Assembly: GCA_900317565.1 (NCBI GenBank)
Contig: ONHI01000011.1
Span: 1 to 45,564 of the forward strand
From: an uncultured Eubacteriales bacterium
GTDB lineage: Bacteria; Bacillota; Clostridia; Christensenellales; Aristaeellaceae
Length of the DNA: 45,564 bases
Direction of reading: 5' to 3'
Shown: positions 1,025 through 8,790 of the stretch, piece after piece
How the letters are laid out: each line of letters starts with the position of its first letter
Numbering within the stretch: the stretch's first letter is position 1
Made by a program: the position numbers and the translations under genes
The notes under the pieces: generated by a model
Told to the model about the DNA's origin: nothing
The model's input: the letters and a program-made list of their open reading frames with translations, nothing else
Databases searched by the model: none

Positions 1025-1042
1025 TTTGCATATATATTCACT
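1025..1042 (+). promoter_or_regulatory. Upstream ARG box (ArgR/AhrC operator)
   Basis: TTTGCATATATATTCACT matches the arginine-repressor consensus WNTGAATWWWWATTCANW at 17 of 18 positions; the only mismatch is C for A in the left half. It lies 86 bp upstream of a second box, the kind of spacing seen where hexameric ArgR/AhrC bridges two operators. ArgR binding here is inference from the motif. Confidence 0.6.
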
Positions 1043-1110: not shown

Positions 1111-1128
1111 TATGAATCATAATTCAAA
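1111..1128 (+). promoter_or_regulatory. Downstream ARG box overlapping the transcription start
   Basis: TATGAATCATAATTCAAA matches the ArgR/AhrC consensus WNTGAATWWWWATTCANW at 17 of 18 positions, with the ATGAAT/ATTCA half-sites intact. It begins directly after the -10 box. Arginine-dependent repression of the operon is the natural reading. Confidence 0.75.
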
Positions 1129-1149: not shown

Positions 1150-2133
1150 ATGAATCTAAAGGGCAAGAGCTTTTTGACGCTGCTGGACTTCACGCCGGAG
1201 GAGATCGACGGGCTGCTCGAGCTGGCGGCACAGCTGAAGGCCAAGAAGAAGGCCGGCATCCCCCACGCGGACTTCGCGGGGAAGAACATCGCGCTGATCT
1301 TTGAAAAGACCAGCACCCGCACCCGCTGCTCCTTTGAGGTGGCGGCCCACGACTTGGGCATGGGCGTGACCTACCTGGACCCCAGCGGCTCCCAGATCGG
1401 CAAGAAGGAATCCATCGCGGACACCGCCCGGGTGCTGGGCCGGATGTACGACGGCATCGAATACCGGGGCTACGGCCAGCAAATCGTGGAGACGCTGGCG
1501 AAGTACGCGGGCGTGCCGGTGTGGAACGGCCTGACCAACGAATTCCACCCCACCCAGATCCTGGCGGACTTCCTTACCATAAAGGAAAAGTTCGGCAAGC
1601 TGGCGGGCGTAAAGCTGGTATACATGGGCGACGCGCGCTACAACATGGGCAATTCGCTGATGGTGGGCTGCGCGAAGATGGGCATGGACTTCGTGGCCTG
1701 CGCGCCGAGGAAGTACTTCCCCGACCCGGCGCTGATCGACAAGTGCCGCGCCATCGCCGCCTGGACCGGCGCGAGCCTCAGCTTCAATGAGGACCCCGCC
1801 GCCGCGGTGAAGGGCGCGCAGGTGATCTACACCGACGTGTGGGTCTCCATGGGCGAGCCGGACGCGGTGTGGGCCGAGCGCATCCACGACCTCACCCCCT
1901 ACCAGGTCAATTCCGCGCTGATGGAGGCCGCCGGGCCCGAGGCCGTGTTCATGCACTGCCTGCCCGCCTTCCACGACCTGAACACCGGCATCGGCAGCCA
2001 GATCCACGAAAAGTACGGCCTGGACGCCATGGAGGTCACCGACGAGGTCTTCGAGGGCCCGCGCTCCATCGTGTTCGACGAGGCCGAAAACCGCATGCAC
2101 ACCATCAAGGCGGTCATGGCGGCGACGCTGTGA
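1150..2133 (+). CDS. argF: Ornithine carbamoyltransferase
   Basis: Transfers the carbamoyl group of carbamoyl phosphate to ornithine, giving citrulline, in cytoplasmic arginine synthesis. The 327 residues match the usual length. The N-terminal carbamoyl-phosphate domain carries STRTR (about residues 55-59) and HPTQ (about 132-135). The ornithine domain carries the HCLPAFHD signature near residue 273, whose Cys and Asp contact ornithine, plus DVWVSMGE, the SMG loop that closes over the substrate. The start ATG is preceded by AGGAGG with 7-nt spacing. It is the first gene of an operon with the two carbamoyl-phosphate synthase subunits, so the enzyme making the substrate is co-expressed with its consumer. 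Paired ARG boxes at the promoter favour the biosynthetic enzyme over a catabolic arcB. Confidence 0.95.
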
Positions 2134-2163
2134 TCCGGCGATTTGCCAGGCAATCGCCGGATC
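2132..2163 (+). promoter_or_regulatory. Intercistronic hairpin between argF and carA
   Basis: GATCCGGCGATT (2132-2143) pairs perfectly with AATCGCCGGATC (2152-2163) around an 8-nt loop. It overlaps the argF stop and ends about 15 nt before the carA ATG. No T-run follows, so it is more likely an RNA-stability or translational element than a terminator. Confidence 0.5.
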
Positions 2164-2178
2164 GGAAAGGGTGATACT

Positions 2179-3227
2179 ATGTCCAAAGCATACCTGATAC
2201 TCGAGGACGGCACGGTCTTTGAGGGCGAGGGCTTCGGCGCGGCGGCGACGGGCCTGGGCGAGCTGGTGTTCAACACCGGCGTCGTGGGCTACATCGAGAC
2301 GCTGACCGACCCCAGCTACTACGGCCAGATTGTGATGCAGACCTTCCCGATGGTGGGCAATTACGGCATCATCGAGGAGGACTTCGAGGGCGAATGCGCC
2401 GTGAAGGGCTATGTGGTGCGGGAATGGTGCCGCGAGCCCAGCAACTTCCGCAGCCAGTACGACCTGGACGCCTTTTTGAAGGCGAAGGGCGTGCCGGGCA
2501 TCTGCGGCATCGACACCCGGGCCGTCACCCAGCGCATCCGGGAGCGGGGCGTGATGAACGCCATGATCGCGGACCGCGTGCCGGAGGACCTCTCGGCGCT
2601 GAAAAACTATGCGGTCACCGGCGGCGTGGCGGCGGTCTCGGCGAAGGAATGCGCGCTGTATCCGCCCGTGGGGCCGAAGCAGTGCGACGTGACGCTGATC
2701 GACTACGGCACCAAGCGCAACATCGTCCGGGAGCTGCAGGGCCGGGGCTGCGCGGTGATGGTGGTGCCCCCCACCGTCTCCGCCGAGGCCATACTCTCCG
2801 GCCAGCCCGACGGCGTGATGCTGTCCCCGGGGACCCGGCGGAGAACACCGCCTGCATCGACGAGATCAAAAAGCTGCTGGGCAAGGTGCCGATGTTCGGG
2901 CTGTGCCTGGGACACCAGATGATGGCGCTGGCCGCCGGCGGGCAGACCACCAAGCTGAAGTACGGCCACCGGGGCGGCAACCAGCCCGTGATCGATAAGG
3001 TCACCGGCCACACCTACATCACCAGCCAGAACCACGGCTACGCGGTGGTGTCCGAGAGCCTGCCCACCGGCAGCGTGCGCTTCGTGAACGCCAACGACGG
3101 CACCTGCGAGGGCGTCGATTACCCCGAATGGCGGTCCTTCTCCGTGCAGTTCCACCCCGAGGCCTGCGCCGGGCCGAGGGACACGAGCGCGCTGTTTGAC
3201 AGGTTTATTGAACTGATGAAGGGATAG
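2179..3227 (+). pseudogene. carA: Carbamoyl-phosphate synthase small subunit, frameshifted
   Basis: Glutaminase subunit that releases ammonia from glutamine for CarB. It starts at ATG 2179 (MSKAYLILEDGTVFEGEGFG) after a GGAAAGGG site. The first frame reads through the N-terminal CarA domain to about 2829. The glutaminase domain then continues in the next frame from about 2832, with FGLCLGHQ (nucleophile Cys), the QNHGYAV segment and QFHPEA (catalytic His), to the stop at 3225-3227. At the junction the family motif LSNGPGDP is expected. The DNA reads CTGTCC then CCGGGGACCC, exactly as if 7 nt (AACGGCC) were lost. With those 7 nt restored the protein would be 351 aa, a normal CarA. No other damage is visible, so this is either a recent mutation or a sequencing/assembly error. 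As written, the product lacks the glutaminase domain. Confidence 0.85.
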
Positions 3228-3235
3228 GTAGAAAT

Positions 3236-6200
3236 ATGCCTCTGAACAAGGATATCAAGAAGGTCCTCATGATCGGCTCGGGGCCGATCGTGATCGGGCA
3301 GGCGGCGGAATTCGACTACGCCGGGGCGCAGGCCTGCCGGGTGCTGAAGAAGGCCGGGGTGAACGTGGTGCTGGTGAACAGCAACCCGGCCACCATCATG
3401 ACCGACAAGGCGCTGGCGGACGAGATCTACCTGGAGCCGCTGACCGTGGAGACGGTGAAGCGCATCATCGAAAAGGAGAAGCCCGACAGCATGCTGGCGG
3501 GCCTGGGCGGCCAGACGGGCCTGACCCTGGCCATGCAGCTGAACAGGGAGGGCTTCCTCGCCGCCCACGGCGTGAAGCTGATCGGCACCAACGCCGACGC
3601 CATCGACAAGGCCGAGGACCGGCAGCTGTTCAAGGACACCATGCAGTCCATCGGCGAGCCGGTGATCCCCTCGGACATCGCCGAGGACGTGGATACGGCG
3701 CTGAGGATCGCCGAAGCCATTGGCTATCCGGTGATCATTCGACCCGCCTTCACGCTGGGCGGCACCGGCGGCGGCGTGGCCTACGACGCAGCCCAGATGG
3801 CCGAGGCCGCCCGCACGGGCCTGGACGCCTCCCCCATCACCCAGATACTGGTCGAAAAATACATCGCGGGCTGGAAGGAGATCGAGTTCGAGACCATGCG
3901 GGACGCGGCGGGCAACTGCATCGCCGTTTGCAGCATGGAGAACGTGGACCCGGTGGGCATACACACCGGCGATTCCATCGTCGTGGCCCCGGCGCTGACC
4001 CTGTCCAACAAGGAATACCAGATGCTGCGCAGCGCGTCGCTGAACATCATCAACGCGCTGGGCATCGTGGGCGGCTGCAACTGCCAGTTCGCGCTGGACC
4101 CGGAGAGCTTTGAATACGCGGTGATCGAGGTCAACCCCCGGGTCAGCCGCTCCTCGGCGCTGGCCAGCAAGGCCACGGGCTATCCCATCGCCAAGGTGAC
4201 CACCCAAATCGCGCTGGGCTACCGGCTGGACGAGATCAAAAACGAGATCACCGGCAAGACATGCGCCTGCTTCGAGCCGGCGGTGGACTACGTGGTGGTG
4301 AAGTTCCCCAAGTGGCCCTTCGACAAGTTCAACACCGCCAGCCGCAAGCTGGGCACCCAGATGAAGGCCACCGGCGAGGTGATGAGCATCGCGCCCTGCT
4401 TCGAGATGGCGCTGATGAAGGCCGTGCGCGGCGCGGAGATCAAGCTGGACACGCTGAACCGGCCCTACGACGGCGACCGGCCCGTGCGGGAGCGCCTGGC
4501 CGACGCCGACGACAATCGGCTGTTCACCGTGTTCGAGGCGCTGAAGGCCGGCGTTGGCGTGGACGAGATCTACGCCATCACGAAGATCGACCGCTGGTTC
4601 CTCAACAAGATCAAGAACCTGGCGGACTTCGAGGCGCGCATAGCGGGCGGGCTCTCCGACGCGGACTACTTCCTCGGCAAGAAGCTGGGCTATCCCGACG
4701 CGGCGCTGGCGCGGCTCTCGGGCCGGTCGGACCTGCCCGCGTCCCGCTCCGCCTACAAGATGGTGGACACCTGCGCGGCGGAGTTCGACGCCGAGACGCC
4801 CTACTTCTACGGCACCTTCGACGACGCCTGCGATTCCCGGGCCTTCCCCCGCTCCGGCAAGCCGGTCATCATCGTGCTGGGCTCCGGCCCGATCCGCATC
4901 GGCCAGGGCATCGAGTTCGACTATTCCAGCGTGCACTGCGTGTGGACGCTGAAGCAGCTGGGCTACGACGTGGCGATCATCAACAACAACCCGGAGACCG
5001 TCTCCACCGACTACGACACCGCCGACCGGCTGTACTTCGAGCCGCTGACCGACGAGGACGTGATGCGCATCATCGAGGTGGAGAAGCCCGTGGGCGTGGT
5101 GGTGGCCTTCGGCGGCCAGACCGCCATCAAGCTGACCCAGAGCCTGGACCGCGCCGGGGTGAACATACTGGGCACCAGCGCCGAGGGCATCGACATCGCC
5201 GAGGACCGGGAGCGCTTCGACGCGCTGCTGGAGCAGTTTGACATCCGCCGCCCCAAGGGCGCGGGCGTGCGCACGCTCCCCGAGGCGCTGGCCGAGGCCG
5301 AGGCGCTGGGCTATCCGGTGCTGCTGCGGCCCAGCTATGTCATCGGCGGCCAGAACATGACCATCGCCCACGACGCCCACGACGTGACCGTGTATATGAA
5401 CCGCATACTGGCGGGCGGCATCGAAAACCCGGTGCTGGTGGACAAATACATGTCCGGCGTGGAGCTGGAGGTGGACGTGATCTCCGACGGCACGGACGTG
5501 CTGATCCCCGGCATCATGCAGCACGTGGAGCGCGCGGGCGTGCACAGCGGCGATTCCATCGCGGTCTACCCGCCCTTCAGCCTGGACGACGCCATGATGG
5601 ACACCGTGGTCAGGAGCAGCGAAAAGCTGGCCCTGGCACTGGGCACGAAGGGCCTGGTGAACATACAGTACCTGGTGTACCACGGCGAGCTGTACGTGAT
5701 CGAGGTGAACCCCCGGGCCAGCCGCACCATCCCCTACATCAGCAAGGTGACGGGCGTGCCCATGGTGGACCTGGCCAGCCGGGTGATGGTGGGCCAGCCG
5801 CTGAAGGGCCTGGGCTACGGCACCGGGCTGTACAAAACCCCGCCCTACTGCGCGGTGAAGGTGCCCGTGTTCAGCTTTGAAAAGCTGACCGACGCCAACA
5901 GCTACCTGGGCCCGGAGATGAAGAGCACCGGCGAGGTGCTGGGCATCGGCAAGGACCTGTCCGAGGCGCTGTTCAAGGGGCTGGTGAGCTCCGGCATACG
6001 GCTGCCCCAGCACAGCCACAGGGCCGGCGTGCTGCTGAGCGTGGACGAATACGACTACCTGGAGGCGCTGGACGTAGCGCGGCGCTTCAGCGACCTGGGC
6101 TGCGCGCTGTACGCCACCGAGGGCACCGCCGAGGCCATCGCCACGCTGGGCATACCGGTGACGGCCATCCCCGGCATCCGGGAGAGCGACCACGCCTTCG

Positions 6201-7261
6201 AGCTGCTGGAGAGCGGCAAGGTGAATTTCATCGTGTACACCGGCGCGCTGCTGGACAGCACGATGGAGGATTACATCGCGCTGCACCGCAAGGCGCTGCT
6301 GCTGAACATCGCCTGCCTGACCTCGCTGGACACGGCCCGGGCGCTGGCGGACATCATGCTCAGCCGCTACACCCAGCAGAACACGGAGCTGGTGGACATC
6401 AACCACATGCGCGCGGAGCGCCAGCGGCTGCCCTTCACGAAGATGCAGGCCACCGGCAACGATTACATCATCATCGACAACACCGACGGCGCGATCCAGT
6501 GCCCGGAGAGCCTGTGCGTGCGGCTGTGCGAGCAGCACTACGGCGTGGGCGCGGAGGGTCTGGCGCTGATCGAGCGCAGCGACATCGCCGACGCGAAGCT
6601 GCGGCTGTACAACCGGGACGGCAGCGAGGGCTTCATGGGCGGCAACGCGCTGCGCTGCGCGGGCAAGTACCTGCACGACCGGGGCATGGTGGACAAGACG
6701 GACATCACCGTGGAGACCGCCGGCGGCGTGAAGAAGCTGCGGCTGCTCACCCGCTACGGCCGGGTCAGCTCCGTGGCGGTGGACATGGGCCCGGCCTCCT
6801 TCGACCCGGCGGTCGTGCCCTGCACGCTGCCCGGGAACAGGGCCGTCAGCGTGCCCGCCGAGATCGGCGGGGAGACGTACACCGTCACCTGCGTGTCCAT
6901 GGGCAACCCCCACTGCGTGGTGTTCACGGACCGGGTGGACGCCCTGGACCTGGAGGCCCTGGGGCCCGTGTTCGAGAACGCGCCGCTGTTCCCCGAGCGG
7001 GTGAACGCCGAATTCGTGCGGGTGGTCAACCCCACCACGCTGCGGATGCGCTGCTTCGAGCGCGGCAGCGGCGAGACCATGGCCTGCGGCACCGGCGCCT
7101 GCGCGGCGGCCGCCGCGGCGGTGGAGAACGGGCTGTGCCGCCCGGACGCCGATATCATGGTGCAGGTCCCCGGCGGCAAGCTGTGGGTCCGCGTCGGCGC
7201 GGACGGCCTGACCCTCACCGGCAAGGTGGAGCAGGTGTTCGAGGCGGAGACGGAGTACTGA
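3236..7261 (+). CDS. carB: Carbamoyl-phosphate synthase large subunit fused to a diaminopimelate epimerase domain
   Basis: Residues 1 to about 1063 are a complete CarB: carboxyphosphate ATP-grasp half (from VLMIGSGPIVIGQAAEFDYAG), oligomerisation region, second ATP-grasp half (from VIIVLGSGPIRIGQGIEFDY near residue 543) and C-terminal MGS-like allosteric domain. It makes carbamoyl phosphate from bicarbonate, ammonia and ATP. Without a stop or a new ribosome site, residues 1065-1341 form a full-length DapF (LPFTKMQATGNDYI to the end), which normally interconverts LL- and meso-diaminopimelate for lysine and peptidoglycan. DapF has two catalytic cysteines. The second is present (Cys1284 in ETMACGTGACA), but the first position reads Gly1135 (MGGNALRC instead of MCGNGxRC). 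The ATG at 3236 lies 8 nt after the carA stop. The fusion is read directly from the DNA. Whether the epimerase half is active, and whether the polypeptide is processed, is unknown. Confidence 0.93.
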   Translation: MPLNKDIKKVLMIGSGPIVIGQAAEFDYAGAQACRVLKKAGVNVVLVNSNPATIMTDKALADEIYLEPLTVETVKRIIEKEKPDSMLAGLGGQTGLTLAMQLNREGFLAAHGVKLIGTNADAIDKAEDRQLFKDTMQSIGEPVIPSDIAEDVDTALRIAEAIGYPVIIRPAFTLGGTGGGVAYDAAQMAEAARTGLDASPITQILVEKYIAGWKEIEFETMRDAAGNCIAVCSMENVDPVGIHTGDSIVVAPALTLSNKEYQMLRSASLNIINALGIVGGCNCQFALDPESFEYAVIEVNPRVSRSSALASKATGYPIAKVTTQIALGYRLDEIKNEITGKTCACFEPAVDYVVVKFPKWPFDKFNTASRKLGTQMKATGEVMSIAPCFEMALMKAVRGAEIKLDTLNRPYDGDRPVRERLADADDNRLFTVFEALKAGVGVDEIYAITKIDRWFLNKIKNLADFEARIAGGLSDADYFLGKKLGYPDAALARLSGRSDLPASRSAYKMVDTCAAEFDAETPYFYGTFDDACDSRAFPRSGKPVIIVLGSGPIRIGQGIEFDYSSVHCVWTLKQLGYDVAIINNNPETVSTDYDTADRLYFEPLTDEDVMRIIEVEKPVGVVVAFGGQTAIKLTQSLDRAGVNILGTSAEGIDIAEDRERFDALLEQFDIRRPKGAGVRTLPEALAEAEALGYPVLLRPSYVIGGQNMTIAHDAHDVTVYMNRILAGGIENPVLVDKYMSGVELEVDVISDGTDVLIPGIMQHVERAGVHSGDSIAVYPPFSLDDAMMDTVVRSSEKLALALGTKGLVNIQYLVYHGELYVIEVNPRASRTIPYISKVTGVPMVDLASRVMVGQPLKGLGYGTGLYKTPPYCAVKVPVFSFEKLTDANSYLGPEMKSTGEVLGIGKDLSEALFKGLVSSGIRLPQHSHRAGVLLSVDEYDYLEALDVARRFSDLGCALYATEGTAEAIATLGIPVTAIPGIRESDHAFELLESGKVNFIVYTGALLDSTMEDYIALHRKALLLNIACLTSLDTARALADIMLSRYTQQNTELVDINHMRAERQRLPFTKMQATGNDYIIIDNTDGAIQCPESLCVRLCEQHYGVGAEGLALIERSDIADAKLRLYNRDGSEGFMGGNALRCAGKYLHDRGMVDKTDITVETAGGVKKLRLLTRYGRVSSVAVDMGPASFDPAVVPCTLPGNRAVSVPAEIGGETYTVTCVSMGNPHCVVFTDRVDALDLEALGPVFENAPLFPERVNAEFVRVVNPTTLRMRCFERGSGETMACGTGACAAAAAAVENGLCRPDADIMVQVPGGKLWVRVGADGLTLTGKVEQVFEAETEY

Positions 7262-7428: not shown

Positions 7429-8790
7429 ATGGTTCGGGACATGACACACGGCTCCCCGCTGAAGCTGATCGTGGGCTTCTGGTTTCCGGTGCTGCTGGGC
7501 AACCTGTTCCAGCAGGTCTACAACCTGGTGGACAGCGTGATCGTCGGGCGCTTCGTGGGCGTGGACGCCTTCGCGGGCGTCAGCGCCACGGGCTCGCTGA
7601 ACTTTCTGATCATCGGCTTCCTGCTGGGCATGTGCAGCGGCTGCGCCATCCCGGTGGCCCAGGCCTTCGGCGAAAACGACCCCCACAAGATGCGCAAATA
7701 CTTCGCCAACGCGATCTATCTGTGCGGCGGCATCGCGGTGGTGATGTCGGTGGTCACGGCGCTGCTGACCCGGCCGATCCTGCGCTGGATCGGCACGCCC
7801 GAGGACATACTGGACGAGGCCTACAGCTACATCGTCTACATCTTCGGCGGCATGTCCGCCATCATGGTCTACAACCTGGCCAGCGGCGTGCTGCGGGCCG
7901 TGGGCAACACCCGCACCCCGCTGTACTTCCTGATGCTCAGCTGTGCGGTGAACGTGGTGCTGGACCTGCTGTTCGTGGTGGTGCTGGGCATGGGCGTCAC
8001 CGGCGCGGCGGTGGCCACCGTGGCAGCCCAGCTGCTGTCCGGCGCGCTGTGCATGGGGCTGATCTTCAAAAAATACGACGTGCTGCGCATCCGCGGCGCG
8101 GAGTGGCAGCCGGACTTGGCCTGCATCCGGCGGCTCAGCGGCATGGGCATGCCCATGGGCATGCAGTTCTCCATCACCGCCATCGGCTCGCTGATCCTGC
8201 AGACCGCGGTCAACGGCCTGGGCTCCGGGGCCGTGGCGGCCATCGGCGCGGGCAGCAAGGTGTACACGCTGTTCTGCTGCCCCTTCGACGCCATGGGCGC
8301 GACCATCGCCACCTGGTGCGGCCAGAACCTGGGCGCGCGGCGCATCGACCGGGTGCGCGTGGGCGTGCGGGAATCGCTGCTGGCCATGACGGCCTACGCC
8401 GTGGCGGCGCTGTTCGCCGTCCGGATGTTCGGCGAGCCGCTGATCCGGCTGTTCATCGCCGGGGCCGAGGCGGGCATCATCGCCGACGCGGTGAAATACC
8501 TGAACCTGGTGGTGTGCTTCTTCGTGCCGCTGCTGCTGATATTCGTGCTGCGCAACGGCCTGCAGGGGCTGGGCTATTCCCGGATCGCGATGTTCGCCGG
8601 GCTGTTCGAGCTGATCGGTCGCACCTTCGTGGCCTTCGCGCTGGTGAAGCCCTACGGCTTTGACGGCGCGATACTGGCAAACCCCGCCGCCTGGATCATG
8701 GCCGACGTGCTGCTGATCCCGGTGTGGCTGCACGTGATCCGCCAGCTGGAGCGCGGCGGCGCGACCGCGGCCCTCGCGGCGCGGGACTGA
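7429..8790 (+). CDS. MATE family efflux transporter
   Basis: An inner-membrane exporter of the multidrug and toxic-compound extrusion family, which uses a sodium or proton gradient. The 453-residue protein has the family's usual length and about 12 hydrophobic segments in two related halves. Its N-terminus, SPLKLIVGFWFPVLLGNLFQ followed by VYNLVDSVIVGRFVG, is typical of clostridial DinF/NorM-like members. The second half begins near residue 235 (MGMPMGMQFSITAIGSLILQ). The start is set by CGGAGG 9 nt upstream. It stands alone between carB and a convergent permease, and its substrate cannot be told from the sequence. Confidence 0.9.
   Translation: MVRDMTHGSPLKLIVGFWFPVLLGNLFQQVYNLVDSVIVGRFVGVDAFAGVSATGSLNFLIIGFLLGMCSGCAIPVAQAFGENDPHKMRKYFANAIYLCGGIAVVMSVVTALLTRPILRWIGTPEDILDEAYSYIVYIFGGMSAIMVYNLASGVLRAVGNTRTPLYFLMLSCAVNVVLDLLFVVVLGMGVTGAAVATVAAQLLSGALCMGLIFKKYDVLRIRGAEWQPDLACIRRLSGMGMPMGMQFSITAIGSLILQTAVNGLGSGAVAAIGAGSKVYTLFCCPFDAMGATIATWCGQNLGARRIDRVRVGVRESLLAMTAYAVAALFAVRMFGEPLIRLFIAGAEAGIIADAVKYLNLVVCFFVPLLLIFVLRNGLQGLGYSRIAMFAGLFELIGRTFVAFALVKPYGFDGAILANPAAWIMADVLLIPVWLHVIRQLERGGATAALAARD

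Follow-up and report, generated by a model that had tools for sequence, protein, structure and literature searches.

A carbamoyl-phosphate synthase large subunit fused in frame to a diaminopimelate epimerase domain without one catalytic cysteine: a fusion present in many Clostridia

Results

The carB.dapF fusion and its parts

Here we describe a gene, carB.dapF, in which the large subunit of carbamoyl-phosphate synthase (CPSase), CarB, is joined to a domain of the diaminopimelate (DAP) epimerase family, DapF. The gene lies in a stretch of 45,564 nucleotides, referred to below as the window, from an uncultured Eubacteriales bacterium of the family Aristaeellaceae (GenBank assembly GCA_900317565.1, contig ONHI01000011.1). 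The list of open reading frames (ORFs) and the translation give a single stop-free frame of 1341 amino acids (Table 1). The CarB model NF003671 spans residues 1-1043 (1411 bits against a cut-off of 599) and a second CarB model, TIGR01369, matches over its full length (1374 bits; cut-off, 1027), while the DapF model TIGR00652 has a full-length match on residues 1067-1339 (246 bits; cut-off, 114.65). The DNA on either side of the junction (6241-6600) contains neither a stop nor a frame change. An earlier, sequence-only reading of the window had proposed an in-frame CarB-DapF fusion, and the single frame, the models matching both parts and the clean junction bear this out; unfused genes in relatives combined with an indel at 6400-6430, which would have spoken against it, were not found. 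In an alignment of 51 rows (A2), the linker motif NTELVDINxMR has an invariant E and L and nearly invariant N, T, V, I, N and R. Possible in-frame starts for a free DapF (ATG 6356, GTG 6392, ATG 6407 and ATG 6443) are accompanied by a weak GGAG at most.

An AlphaFold2 model of residues 549-1341, built on 51 rows, had a mean predicted local distance difference test score (pLDDT) of 85.6 and a predicted template modelling score of 0.82. Within the DapF domain, most blocks of ten residues reached a pLDDT of about 90. A Foldseek search with this model matched the first part to CPSases and the last part to DapFs. Among the matches listed, the closest DapF by root mean square deviation (1.6 A) was 9mro, a cyanobacterial enzyme that is described in its entry title as bound to DAP analogues. 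The DapF domain is therefore predicted to have an intact fold; the model speaks to fold and not to binding.

Table 1. Position of the fusion gene, its parts and the neighbouring features in the window
Feature	Position	Strand	Evidence
carB.dapF fusion	3236..7261	+	1341-aa translation, protein family models
CarB part, residues 1-1043: both ATP-grasp halves, oligomerisation domain, MGS-like allosteric domain	3236..6364	+	Pfam, NCBIfam
Junction, residues 1044-1066, with conserved NTELVDINxMR	6365..6433	+	alignment A2
DapF-fold domain, residues 1067-1339	6434..7252	+	TIGR00652, AlphaFold2 model
Gly1135 codon GGC, place of catalytic Cys73	6638..6640	+	alignment to solved DapFs
Cys1284 codon, equivalent of catalytic Cys217, retained	7085..7087	+	alignment
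argF, ornithine carbamoyltransferase	1150..2133	+	TIGR00658, 434.5 bits vs cut-off 280.85
carA (ORF start as listed; true start unsure)	2143..3227	+	frame broken ~2820-2840 in this assembly
ARG-box-like site	1025..1042	+	1 mismatch to 18-bp consensus (presumed; see text)
ARG-box-like site beside TATAAT, 21 bp upstream of argF	1111..1128	+	1 mismatch to the same consensus
MATE-family transporter gene downstream of fusion	7429-8790		TIGR00797, 192 bits

Distribution of the fusion

A protein search with residues 1060-1341 as the query, in which only proteins of 0.55-1.75x the length of the fusion were admitted, gave 4918 matches among 7988 candidates scored. The top 120 matches listed, which include the query and near-copies, carry CarB-type Pfam domains together with DAP_epimerase, and most are 1341 amino acids long; the fusion is thus shared by relatives. 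A scan of named genomes found at least 582 stretches encoding a relative of the fused domain (fusion status checked only in part). In each of the best 80 of these (L025-L104), CarB sequence or the linker lies in frame with the domain; a contig end clips some of them. The carriers include the strain records Oscillibacter valericigenes An860 (L042) and Gemmiger sp. An120 (L046). When a fusion was defined as a DapF match within a frame of at least 600 amino acids, it was present in 51 of 391 genomes sampled from the class and 15 of 398 from the phylum, the window's own genome included in each. A fused-type domain at E 1e-118 was detected in 72 of 200 genomes of the family, again with the window's own, a few of them in frames clipped short. 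These thresholds miss divergent members, as genomes of genus g24 with 1342-amino-acid frames (G064, G131 and G194) are not among the family matches. In the window's own genus, five genomes (G016, G108, G128, G146 and G192) have the fusion in frames of 1343-1362 amino acids, and only unfused carB was present in 3 of the 10 other sampled members (G060, G086 and G160). The fusion is not rare and is present in many Clostridia; the protein search and the genome scans rule out an oddity of a single lineage. The adjoining carA is broken in this assembly, which might raise the suspicion that the fusion is itself an artefact of assembly or sequencing. However, similar-length fusions occur in dozens of other genomes, some of them within a single contig (G472; G845 and G869), and this explanation, whose probability is close to nil, is ruled out by them.

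Active site of the fused domain

The catalytic residues of DapF are Cys73, His159, Glu208 and Cys217 (PMC3581254). In the window, Gly1135 aligns opposite Cys73 of solved DapFs and Cys1284 corresponds to Cys217, so that only one of the two cysteines required by DapF is present. The description of this domain as a full-length DapF, made in the earlier reading, holds for its length but not for its catalytic residues. Among distinct domain sequences, residue 73 is Cys in all 60 stand-alone DapFs and in 36 of 138 fused domains (Cys-type); the other 102 (Cys-less) have Ala (73), Gly (23) or Ser (6). A class scan gave 27 Cys and 23 non-Cys forms among 50 fused domains, whereas a count of 120 Cys-less forms in 120 rows is biased because those rows are the nearest neighbours of a Gly-type query.

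Most of the remaining active site has been kept in the 102 Cys-less domains: N64, N157, E208 and G218 are retained in 102 each, N190 and H159 in 101, R209 and C217 in 100, and G74, N75 and T219 in 99 each. These catalytic and binding sites stand out because the average column of the domain is 69% conserved in this set. In Hi-DapF the reacting carboxylate is held by G74, N75, G218 and S219 and the far one by N64, N157, N190 and R209, and, with the exception of His159 and Cys217, the residues retained in the Cys-less domains are those that contact the carboxylates and amines of DAP (PMC8225329). The domain of the window has N64, N157, N190, R209, G74, N75, G218 and T219, i.e., the DAP-binding residues for both carboxylates, and has also retained those for the far amine. 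Retention of both carboxylate sites points to DAP. The predicted site for binding a DAP-like molecule has thus been retained, whereas two-base epimerisation has likely been lost.

Selection on the fused domain was estimated as omega by NG86 on hand-picked close pairs, in several of which synonymous changes are near saturation. Omega of the DapF domain was 0.06-0.25 across 12 Cys-less pairs from outside the genus of the window; six Cys-type pairs yielded a value, in the range 0.02-0.10. In the same pairs of both classes the omega of CarB was lower than that of the domain by 1.0 to 3.5 times. These values indicate that the domain is under constraint, mostly looser than that on CarB.

Other routes to meso-DAP

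The genome of the window carries, on a different contig (C53), a stand-alone dapF that encodes both cysteines, a second copy of the kind that the earlier reading had suggested looking for; a search of this genome for meso-DAP dehydrogenase (Ddh) found none. We tallied these routes in 129 fusion genomes, 80 of them named and 49 from the class sample. Another DapF or DapF fragment is present in 64 of the 92 Cys-less genomes, 21 more have Ddh and 7 have neither, i.e., some other route to meso-DAP exists in 85 of 92. Among the 37 Cys-type genomes, only 4 have another DapF, 28 have only Ddh besides the fusion and 5 have neither; the fusion is the sole DapF in 33 of them. The contrast between the classes in possession of a second DapF is marked (Fisher p 7e-10, on raw counts not corrected for kinship). 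Among the 72 fusion genomes of the family, 64 have at least four DAP_epimerase half-matches (equivalent to two DapFs), one has three and seven have two; Ddh was looked for in three of these seven (G192, G078 and G080) and none was found.

These counts bear on whether the protein is still a working epimerase that makes both carbamoyl phosphate and meso-DAP. The full TIGR00652 match over the cut-off, the seven Cys-less genomes with no other route and the probable activity of the Cys-type fusions would all be consistent with such an enzyme. However, changing either Cys to Ser in a DapF homologue leaves <0.1% activity (PMC8225329), and the genome of the window carries another dapF with Cys; we consider a working epimerase very improbable.

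Two loci, L055 and L273, probably from one genome (Candidatus Pullichristensenella), show further losses in the active site (N11->T, N75->G, R78->M and C79->L). Another DapF and Ddh were both looked for in that genome and neither was found. If the two loci are from one genome, Candidatus Pullichristensenella would fall in the window's family.

CarB regulatory site and gene neighbourhood

The CarB parts of the two classes differ at the uridine monophosphate (UMP) site. All 36 Cys-type rows and all 15 unfused CarBs have Lys993 of this site, compared with 26 of 95 Cys-less rows (near-copies kept). Residue 1015, which is Asn in Escherichia coli, is Tyr in 78 of the 95 Cys-less rows; all 36 Cys-type rows have Ser there, and 13 of the 15 unfused CarBs have Asn. 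In the window, Lys993 is replaced by Gly and Asn1015 by Tyr; Thr977 and Thr1042 are retained almost everywhere. The roles of E783, D791, E892, K954 and N1015 are those that we take these residues to have. The ornithine-site residues E783, D791 and T1042 are retained in the window. Loss of the ornithine site was considered as a mark of the fusion and ruled out: fused CarBs have V (or A) at residue 892 and unfused CarBs share the V, so that E892 of the E. coli ornithine site is uninformative. Lys993 is crucial at the UMP site (PMC6245113). In the E. coli enzyme this residue serves regulation; CPSase activity does not depend on it.

The gene neighbourhoods also differ. Arginine genes lie near 40 of 70 Cys-less loci, many of which are clipped by a contig end, and near none of 10 Cys-type loci, whereas dapL (DapL representative: TIGR03542) is found at 6 of 10 Cys-type and 1 of 70 Cys-less loci; several Cys-type loci have glutamine-synthetase or ANTAR-like genes. 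Neighbours were checked by tblastn with one representative each, the underlying gene calls being crude in GC-rich DNA, and the NCBIfam check covered the ArgD, ArgH and DapL representatives and the ArgF of the window, other neighbour names being read from sequence. Loss of the cysteine is accompanied by a change in both the CPSase regulatory site and the gene neighbourhood.

A domain with one cysteine might also be an enzyme with a new chemistry, e.g., proton exchange or beta-elimination on an amino acid, performed by Cys217 alone. Retention of Cys217 in 100 of 102 Cys-less domains and the near invariance of His159 and Glu208 despite the loss of Cys73 would fit such an activity, but the recurrent neighbours that could be identified are plain arginine synthesis genes, although many neighbours are unnamed, and we regard a new chemistry as rather improbable.

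Phylogeny of the fusion

A tree of the C-terminal half of CarB, from which the DapF columns were excluded, was built by a rapid method (LG+G4). Its rows do not include fusions whose upstream sequence was too short, among them the Gly types of genus g112. One branch (support, 85) splits the 121 fused rows from 12 unfused rows, and L171, an unfused long branch, makes this split less sure. Cys-bearing fusions form a basal grade in this tree, and a single clade of 82 rows (support, 100) carries only A, G or S at residue 73. Seven more Cys-less rows, two of which are a pair, sit among the Cys forms or at the base. The best tree requires at least six changes of the Cys state; the starred branches alone require three.

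One genome, G236, has both an unfused carA-carB-dapF-dapL run (L189, contig C39) and a carB.dapF fusion beside argF (L190, contig C42). The L189 run likely shows the gene order that preceded the fusion, although its carB groups with other unfused CarBs. In another genome (G230), an unfused carB is followed closely by a separate dapF. The L171 gene (G229, Gemmiger An120) encodes a CarB of 1119 amino acids without DapF that has 57% identity to the window protein, compared with 45-48% for the other unfused CarBs compared; this gene could either have lost the domain or belong to a branch that predates the fusion.

Neighbouring genes and ARG-box-like sites

The gene order at the locus, argF-carA-carB.dapF, is of the arginine type. 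A CarA partner adjoins carB.dapF, though its frame is broken in the assembly. The two pieces of carA share one frame in six relatives (L025, L177, L179, L181, L186 and L187), and hence the split looks either recent or due to faulty assembly. A scan with an 18-bp sequence that we take to be the ARG-box consensus found the two sites of Table 1, each with one mismatch, against 0.19 expected in the whole window, and no further site at three or fewer mismatches. The ARG boxes that the earlier reading saw in this operon are therefore real by pattern, both being upstream of argF.

Discussion

Our results suggest, tentatively, that the fused DapF, having lost one catalytic cysteine, likely cannot interconvert LL- and meso-DAP and is a predicted DAP-binding allosteric domain on CPSase. 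Under this proposal the ancestor would have been a bifunctional CPSase/DAP epimerase, in which a second dapF or Ddh made the fused epimerase redundant. The CPSase would then have turned arginine dedicated, and the fused domain may have been retained because CPSase activity had come under its DAP-responsive control. Most likely, the domain would bind DAP and signal through the conserved linker to the adjacent MGS allosteric domain, in place of the UMP input that has been lost. A broader account, which is possible but on balance doubtful, is that an ancient bifunctional enzyme lost the catalytic cysteine several times and that, in one large clade of Clostridia, it became an arginine-dedicated CPSase whose pseudo-epimerase would be a new type of allosteric domain, with DAP directly setting the synthesis of carbamoyl phosphate and arginine. 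The sequence-only reading had suggested that synthesis of wall precursors might be tied to arginine status. This suggestion is not supported, given the absence of the catalytic Cys from the fused domain and the presence of a separate two-cysteine dapF elsewhere in the genome; it is more likely that any coupling runs the other way, with DAP acting on carbamoyl-phosphate synthesis.

Several observations weigh against a DAP-sensing domain and the history proposed for it. Asn11, the binder of the reacting amine, is retained in 77 of 102 Cys-less domains and is D or another residue in 25. In eight pairs from the GC-rich genus of the window and its neighbour L025, omega is 0.38-0.61 for the domain and 0.20-0.38 for CarB. 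Associations, including that between loss of the cysteine and a second DapF, rest on few independent losses; when the latter was examined on independent pairs, there were only 3 to 5 pairs and a sign test was not significant. Seven Cys-less genomes show neither other route to meso-DAP, although two of these are 65% complete, and G192, a member of the window's genus that is 93% complete, has the fusion, one DapF and no Ddh. Furthermore, 31 of the 37 Cys-type fusions occur together with Ddh, and genomes with neither route are about as frequent in this class (5 of 37) as in the Cys-less one; whether some other route exists does not, on its own, distinguish the two classes.

Comparison with known systems shows what is unusual about this protein. 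The window protein resembles CarB (TIGR01369) in its full-length match and in its ornithine-site residues but differs in the C-terminal DapF and in the replacements at Lys993 and Asn1015. Its last domain is like DapF (TIGR00652) in fold, length, both carboxylate sites and Cys217 but is without Cys73, is fused to CarB and occurs in a genome with a stand-alone dapF. Yeast Ura2 and animal CAD are also fusions of a CPSase to another enzyme domain, but their partners belong to pyrimidine synthesis and not to DAP. Ura2 also contains an inactive, dihydroorotase-like domain (PMC6245113). In E. coli, a DapF fold stimulates another enzyme without epimerase activity, since an inactive DapF in which C73 and C217 are both changed to Ala can still bind RppH and stimulate it (PMC4227774); this case differs in that there is no fusion, the partner is an RNA pyrophosphohydrolase and the DapF is normally an enzyme. 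The last two examples are precedents for the proposal, RppH for regulation of another enzyme by a non-catalytic DapF fold and Ura2 for an inactive enzyme domain within a CPSase fusion. Together with conservation of the linker and domain across the family, they could also be read as indicating that the domain is retained for structure only, aiding CarB folding, dimerisation or the holding of CarA/ArgF while sensing nothing. A scaffold, however, would have no need of the two carboxylate sites, Glu208, His159 and Cys217, which are retained in 97-100% of the 102 Cys-less domains, and we consider a purely structural role somewhat unlikely.

We found no paper on a CarB-DapF fusion protein in the open-licence library searched. 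The few named rows among the 120 listed matches are labelled as carbamoyl-phosphate synthase large subunit only; hence, a second domain appears to have gone unnoticed in an enzyme that is common among gut Clostridia. Such a gene should not be counted as a dapF in metabolic models or target lists. The family holds apparent living intermediates, i.e., separate carB and dapF genes, an active-looking fusion and a disarmed fusion, and is a good case for studying the passage from enzyme to regulator. If the fused domain does sense DAP, the level of a peptidoglycan and lysine precursor would be wired to nitrogen-rich arginine synthesis at the level of the enzyme.

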